Shown here: positions 23,772 to 25,700 of the stretch, one piece after another
How positions within the stretch are numbered: the first letter of the stretch is position 1
How the letters are laid out: the number at the start of each line of letters is the position of its first letter
NCBI GenBank assembly: GCA_030651575.1
Contig: JAUSFB010000077.1
Span: 1 to 64,000 of the forward strand
Length of the DNA: 64,000 nt
Direction: 5' to 3'
Origin: Phaeospirillum sp.
GTDB taxonomy: Bacteria > Pseudomonadota > Alphaproteobacteria > Rhodospirillales > Magnetospirillaceae
Translations under genes and position numbers: made by a program
Notes under the pieces: model-generated
The model's input: the letters and a program-made list of their open reading frames with translations, nothing else
What the model was told of the DNA's origin: nothing
The model's database searches: none

Positions 23772-25700
23772 TTACTGCCTTCCCTCTAACAGAGCACCCA
23801 CAACGCCGGGTTCAGCCAGTGTGCTGGTGTCGCCCAGATCTTCGACATGGCCGGAGGCAATTTTTCGCAGAATCCGGCGCATGATTTTGCCGGAGCGGGT
23901 TTTGGGAAGGGATGGTGTGAATTGGATTTTGTCGGGGGTGGCGACGGGGCCGATCACTTTGCGAACGTGGTCGCTCAATATTTTTTTGAGGCCCACTTCA
24001 TTTGTCTGGCTCGTTTTTAGTGTGACGTAGGCATAAATTCCTTCCCCTTTTATTTCATGCGGAAACCCAACTACCGCCGCCTCTGCAACACTCGGGTGAG
24101 AGACGAGCGCCGACTCCACCTCTGCGGTGCCGATGCGATGGCCTGATACGTTCAGCACATCATCGAGTCTTCCCATCAGCCAATAGTAGCCATCTTCGTC
24201 GACACGCGCGCCGTCGCCGGTATAATAGTTGCCGGGAAATTTTTTGAAGTAGGTCTCTTTGAAACGTTCGTGATGTCCATAAACCGTGCGCATGATTCCG
24301 GGCCACGGTTCGCTGATGACAAGATAGCCCCCCTCGCCCGGTTTGGTGACCGGTGAGCCGTCCTCCTTCACAATTTTTGGATTCACGCCGAAAAAGGGAA
24401 TCGTCGCAGAACCCGGTTTCAAATCGGTGCAACCGGGAAGCGGTGAAATCAAAATGCCGCCGGTCTCGGTCTGCCACCAGGTGTCGACGATGGGGCAGCG
24501 ATTGTCGCCGACCACGCGGTGATACCAGGTCCAGGCCTCGGGATTGATGGGTTCGCCCACCGAACCCAGCAGGCGCAGCGACTTGCGGCTGGTGGTCTGG
24601 ACCGGGGCCTCGCCTTCGCGCATCAGCGAACGGATGGCGGTCGGCGCGGTGTAGAAGATGTTGACCTTGTGCTTGTCGACCACTTCCCAGAAGCGCGCCA
24701 CCGTCGGATAGTTCGGGATGCCTTCGAACATCAAGGTGGTGGCGCCGTTGGCCAGCGGGCCGTAGACGATGTAGGAGTGACCGGTCACCCAACCCACATC
24801 GGCGGTGCACCAGTAGATGTCGCCGTCATGGTAGTCGAAAACGTATTGATGGGTGATGGAGGCGTAGACCAGATAGCCGCCGGTGGTGTGCAGCACACCC
24901 TTGGGCTTGCCGGTCGAACCGGAGGTGTAGAGCAGGAACAGCGGAGCCTCGGCGTCCATCTCGGCCGGCTGATGGGTCGGAGCCGCCTTGGCGACCAGCT
25001 CTTCGTACCAGCTGTCGCGGCCGGTCACCATGTGGATGTTGCCGCCGGTGCGCTTGACCACGATGACGTTCTTGACCGACCAGCAGGTCTCCAGCGCCTT
25101 GTCCACATTGGCCTTCAGCGGAACCTTGCGGCCGCCGCGCAGACCTTCGTCGGCGGTGATCACCAGATTGGAGTCGCAATCCTGGATGCGGCCGGCCAGG
25201 GCGTCGGGCGAAAAGCCGCCGAACACGATGGAGTGAACCGCGCCGATGCGGGCGCAGGCCAGCATGGCCACGGCGGCCTCCGGAATCATGGGCAGGTAGA
25301 TGGTGACGCGGTCGCCCACCTTGATGCCCAGATCGGTCATGGCGTTGGACAGGCGGCACACCCGCTCGTGCAGGTCGCGGTAGGTGATGTGAGCGGACTC
25401 GCTGGGGTCGTCGCCTTCCCAGATGATGGCGGTCTGATCGCCGCGCGTGGCCAGATGCCGGTCGAGGCAGTTGGCGGCGACGTTCAGGGTGCCGTCATGG
25501 TACCATTTGATATGGACGTCGCCGGTATACGAGACATCCTTCACCTTGGTGTATGGCTTGATCCAGTCGATACGCTTGCCGTGCTCCCCCCAGAACCCTT
25601 CGGGATCGTTGATCGAGCGCGCATACCATTCGGTATAGGTCTTCTCGTCGATCAGGGCGTTCTTGGCGGTTTCGGCAGAGATTGGATAGACGTCGGACAT
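23772..25700 (-). CDS. acs: Acetyl-CoA synthetase, composite of two sequence types
   Basis: AMP-forming acetate:CoA ligase, 642 residues. The ATP-binding loop [11 protein letters not shown] (about 258-268), the motif [10 protein letters not shown] (about 403-412) and the regulatory lysine context RSGKIMRR near 600 are all present, so the translated enzyme looks intact. I use ATG 25700 (MSDVYPIS), which has GGGAGA upstream; the longer frame to 25850 lacks support. Codon use changes inside the gene: the N-terminal two thirds (24,500-25,700) is GC-rich, the C-terminal third A/T-richer, with the break at the WWQTETGG codons. It is probably a stitched gene, not a natural one. Confidence 0.85.
24457..24500. 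other. Composition junction, probable assembly chimera breakpoint
   Basis: Sixty-base blocks on either side differ: 24361-24420 has 28 G/C, 24541-24600 has 40 G/C, and the shift persists over the whole of each half. The breakpoint coincides with the nearly invariant acs motif WWQTETGG, the sort of short identical stretch at which assemblers or amplification join unrelated templates. Confidence 0.75.

Follow-up and report, generated by a model that had tools for sequence, protein, structure and literature searches.

The window analysed here, a stretch of 64,000 nucleotides that makes up positions 1 to 64,000 of contig C42 in the 4.23-Mb, 87-contig assembly GCA_030651575.1, raises the question of how a single acetyl-CoA synthetase gene, acs, comes to have two base compositions. 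The first-pass annotation held that GC content and codon use shift within one open reading frame at the codons for WWQTETGG and stay different for more than 24 kb on either side, and the composition agrees with this description throughout. A one-change fit over the whole window places the GC step at base 24,450, with a GC content of 0.484 to the left and 0.657 to the right. A fit within the acs frame places a break in GC3 at codon 415 (about position 24,455), at WWQTETGG, with a 2ΔlogL of 63.9; GC3 is 0.867 ahead of the motif and 0.59 past it. This likelihood gain was reached in none of 2000 shuffles, the largest shuffle giving 19.4. The compositional step is located at a single point, as expected of a metagenomic assembly chimera. 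The low-GC part spans to the start of C42, and the high-GC part continues beyond the window to the end of the contig at 103,056 (where the two pieces that follow have 66.7% and 64.5% GC). Of the ten low-GC bins of the window, nine are also the nine most deviant 2.5-kb tetranucleotide bins, in a comparison with 353 bins elsewhere that cover sampled stretches of the assembly only, 41 of the 87 contigs having been read as N and left out. The remaining bin, the one across the junction, is 12th in rank, after two bins of contig C71.

The acs frame (23,772 to 25,850, minus strand) is open across the junction. In a domain search ACAS_N, AMP-binding and AMP-binding_C (Pfam) all match the fused frame, so that the three domains of the known enzyme are present and in order; it departs from the known acetyl-CoA synthetase in that its two parts have different closest relatives. 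The features on which the argument turns are as follows.

1 to 24,453, no strand assigned: foreign 24.45-kb tail, carrying thiI, nrdJ, thyX, an M3 peptidase gene, tRNA-Val, a SlyD-type PPIase gene, a TIGR02757 gene, moeB, ispH, fumC and the 3' part of acs
16,786 to 17,538, minus strand: moeB-like gene of the donor clade, 64-69% amino acid identity in three donor-clade loci
19,185 to 20,135, minus strand: ispH of the donor clade, 80-83% amino acid identity in three donor-clade loci
20,581 to 21,978, minus strand: fumC of the donor clade, 83, 82, 76 and 72% amino acid identity in genomes G065, G076, G072 and G086, respectively
23,772 to 24,453, minus strand: foreign 3' part of acs, GC3 0.59, 73-85% amino acid identity to 10 donor-clade loci
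24,454 to 24,485, minus strand: 32-base string, identical in the window acs and in the acs with which contig C23 opens, coding for ten residues and the start of an I
24,486 to 25,700, minus strand: host 5' half of acs, high GC, 86.3-91.4% DNA identity to the loci of all 14 relatives
24,486 to 64,000 and on to position 103,056 of C42, no strand assigned: host contig proper, high GC, with synteny upstream of acs in G008, G009, G011 and G016

A DNA search with acs found matches in 39 of 40 genomes, the host's own included, and 14 of the loci of relatives were compared with the window (12 from the same genus and two from the same family). To these 14 loci the 3' part of the window gene is only 65.0-69.0% identical in DNA, against the much higher values for the 5' half given above. 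The first-pass annotation had proposed that the two halves of Acs be compared separately, a common closest relative being what would speak against a fusion, and their closest relatives turn out to differ. The 5' half is 89-94% identical in amino acids to host relatives (six of the 14 loci) and 53-59% identical to the 10 donor-clade loci, whereas the 3' part is 65-67% identical to the same host relatives and 73-85% identical to the donor clade. Differing closest relatives for the two sides are what an assembly chimera is expected to give. Plasmid records were also compared with the 5' half of acs: 18 of them have a place at least 80% identical to it, and the best eight of the 280 matching records come from Sinorhizobium, Microvirga, Shinella and Methylobacterium, at 73-76%. 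These matches suggest, if weakly, an alphaproteobacterial origin for the 5' half.

The tail does contain the tRNA and housekeeping genes that had been noted on the foreign side, and several of these help to place its source. Among the best 80 nrdJ loci from named genomes, NrdJ is 66-68% identical to proteins of MAGs labelled Omnitrophica/Omnitrophota, Deltaproteobacteria and Myxococcales. A second tail-like gene is present in only four of the 80 loci, and none has a convincing shared neighbourhood. The 3' part of Acs was matched in 15 of 16 genomes picked from these loci, the best match being a groundwater 'Deltaproteobacteria' MAG (L185, 74%), and in 58 of the 60 genomes made up of that MAG and its relatives, where the best three reach 85%. 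An Omnitrophica genome (that of L127) was considered as a relative of the donor and set aside, its match to the 3' part of Acs being only 28%. FumC gives a similar placement: outside the four genomes listed above, the other eight of the 12 genomes searched have at most 53% amino acid identity, and the best match is 51% in the host relative G011 and 29% in G008. The order moeB-ispH-fumC-acs, all on one strand, is native in G076, G072 and G086 at 45-53% GC, as in the window. These native loci (L259, L256/L257 and L261) account for three of the 10 donor-clade loci; fumC was not found in the examined stretch of the other seven, and in G065 it lies on another contig.

By these comparisons, the acs end of the tail is well placed in the clade around the 'Deltaproteobacteria' MAG, which we take to be UBA10199 of GTDB. 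The tail genes to the left of moeB have no match in the 10 donor-clade loci. The assignment of positions 1 to 16,700 to the same genome as the acs end rests on uniform composition, contig continuity and NrdJ rather than on synteny. Contig C69 of the assembly carries another nrdJ-like gene, with five matches of 69-78% to the nrdJ of the window.

If the 3' part of acs in the window is foreign, the remainder of the host gene should lie elsewhere, and it does. Contig C23 of the same assembly (101,675 bases) opens with an acs frame at 315-2228 whose DNA identities to the same 14 loci are the mirror image of those in the window, 64.7-67.9% in the 5' half and 84.7-94.7% in the 3' half. The true continuation of the host gene is therefore present in the assembly, as the 3' half of the C23 frame. 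Synteny was checked in four relatives, G008, G009, G011 and G016, three of them genomes of one or two contigs. In all four, the upstream neighbours of acs are homologous to C42 between 25,720 and about 27,570 (in the piece of G008 examined the homology reaches 26,597), and the downstream neighbours to C23 from about position 2300 on. The neighbours of acs in the relatives, together with the mirror-image identities, indicate that in the host chromosome C42 continues through acs into C23, and that the assembly broke the chromosome at the shared string. With the host gene split in this way and its two pieces joined to sequences of other ancestry, the proposal that two unrelated genomes are fused inside acs is upheld.

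The beginning of C23 has a history of its own. Its first approximately 1.5 kb (positions 1-1540, L046) holds the 5' half of acs and the end of another frame and then gives way to host sequence; the first 1,508 bases have a GC content of 0.57, and GC3 in this 5' half of acs is 0.75. The encoded 5' half of Acs shares 47-52% identity with the 10 donor-clade loci and 49-51% with six host relatives, but 63-65% with four Chloroflexota-type loci and 58% with a Nitrospinaceae MAG. In searches of 12 genomes, and then of 150 around a 'Sphaerobacter' MAG (the latter at E 1e-150), none of the matches listed exceeded 65%. This 5' half probably comes from a third lineage, which can be placed only roughly, its nearest relatives among those tried being Chloroflexota-type MAGs. 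The foreign pieces of C42 and of C23 both lie at contig starts. Neither the acs 5' half of the donor nor the 3' half belonging to the third organism turned up in the assembly, as far as its contigs could be searched (41 of the 87 read as N).

The window acs and the first 2400 bases of C23 have as their longest common substring the 32 bases listed above, at acs nucleotide 1215 and at positions 1,509-1,540 of C23, and the junction lies within this string or at its 3' edge. For C42 and C23, then, the join falls within a string common to the joined genomes, as is expected of an assembly chimera. In L259, a relative of the donor, 30 of the 32 bases are identical, with an uninterrupted run of 26. 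Whether the motif is in general the longest string shared between loci of different clades received a mixed answer from the sequence comparisons. When flanks are counted in, the TGGTGGCA core falls within the longest common string in only 45 of 140 pairs of other host and donor-clade loci, and in 41 of 56 pairs for the Chloroflexota-type loci. The shared string and the split host gene are direct observations, as are the differing relatives of the pieces and the native neighbours of the host acs.

We consider that the contig is an assembly chimera formed at a conserved string shared by the acs genes of several organisms, with a probability of roughly 0.96. One sample would have contained several organisms with acs genes sharing the same or nearly the same 32 or so bases, and at this string the assembler would have been unable to pair upstream with downstream paths. 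One wrong join would have connected the 5' side of the host gene to the 3' side of the low-GC genome, producing C42, and a second the 5' side of the third genome to the 3' side of the host gene, producing C23. Since the shared string lies at the same codons in every acs, the frame survives. At least three genomes thus seem to have become entangled at the conserved string. We infer that the sample contained several organisms and that the joins arose in the assembly graph, not in a molecule of DNA. The final k-mers in common use are longer than 32 bases. The exact assembler step is less firm, since the string is only 32 bases long and the motif is not always the longest shared string. A chimera at a conserved motif that preserves the frame, arising in assembly or amplification, had been suggested at the outset, and the mirror-image join and third lineage on C23 lend that suggestion support.

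Such failures have precedents. The sections of PMC12133742 drawn on here describe a failure of joining at conserved sequences, and those of PMC11443906 set out the same limitation of de Bruijn graphs. The present case resembles the inter-genome misassemblies (chimeric contigs) of metagenomes treated in these sections (PMC12133742, PMC11443906), in that upstream and downstream sequences are falsely paired at a shared conserved string. It differs from them in two respects: one assembly contains two wrong joins of one host gene, and the join keeps the frame of a protein-coding gene, so that domain searches see an intact enzyme.

The joins might instead have been made physically, in library preparation or whole-genome amplification rather than by the assembler. 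Short shared strings also prime template switching, and the products would look identical in an assembly. However, the host gene has two different foreign partners, one on each of two contigs, and meets both at the same string. Two such joins follow directly from a single graph node, while rare independent molecules would presumably have to repeat the event, and we regard a physical origin as very unlikely.

Natural recombination, in which foreign acs-bearing DNA crossed over with the host acs at the conserved string and carried 24 kb or more along with it, would account for the intact acs frame, and a single crossover would also split the host gene and join each half to a foreign half. A single crossover needs one donor, however, and the two foreign halves appear to come from two: identity to the donor clade is 47-52% for the C23 5' half and 73-85% for the window 3' part. 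The part of the tail that was searched is also absent from the relatives examined, for when positions 16,700-24,453 were compared with 60 genomes (the host and its relatives), no relative gave a match longer than 332 bases outside acs. Nor was a mobile-element family found among the matches of 19 tail ORFs scanned with NCBIfam, eight of them also with Pfam. It is mainly the third-lineage origin of the C23 5' half that leads us to reject natural horizontal transfer and single-crossover integration, to which we give hardly any weight. The broader claim of a real hybrid acs, made by recombination of distant lineages at the motif with the import of at least 24 kb of housekeeping genes, is just as hard to credit; it would make C23 a separate, independent error or event at the same string. 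Plain contamination of the bin is ruled out by the position of the join inside one open frame on one contig.

Two further contig ends in the assembly show irregularities. In C71 the first approximately 17 kb (1-16,946, L095) has a GC content of 0.554 (0.636 in the 23 kb that follow) and contains housekeeping genes, namely aspS, mlaE, aroA, a Nudix-ThiE fusion, coaE, a T2SSF protein gene and lgt. When C71 from position 14,500 was compared with 20 genomes, the long same-genus matches all started at the start of ilvD (16,947); to the left of ilvD only stretches of about 500 bases or shorter match, at 67-82%. A second aspS, on C7, is 43% identical to that of C71. The first 17 kb or so of C71 may be another foreign tail. 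Contig C74 starts within the 5' part of another ilvD (1-599, L098), which is 82% identical to that of C71. Over its approximately 200 bases at the end of the contig, identity to two relatives is 63-70%, following values of 85-89% (G008) or 74-87% (G002). The C74 pattern resembles the acs case; it is not a clean one, since C71 and C74 disagree where they overlap.

To return to the assembly chimera at acs, the fused gene is no real biological feature. As an example of an in-frame chimera of distant lineages it is a clean one, hidden in an assembly with scores of 99.99% for completeness and 3.3% for contamination. If accepted as it stands, the sequence would lead to false claims of long-range transfer of fumC, ispH, nrdJ and thyX and of a hybrid Acs, and C42 from 1 to about 24,485 and C23 from 1 to about 1,540 deserve flags in the record. 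The finding adds nothing new to biology; its value is as a warning on record GCA_030651575.1.
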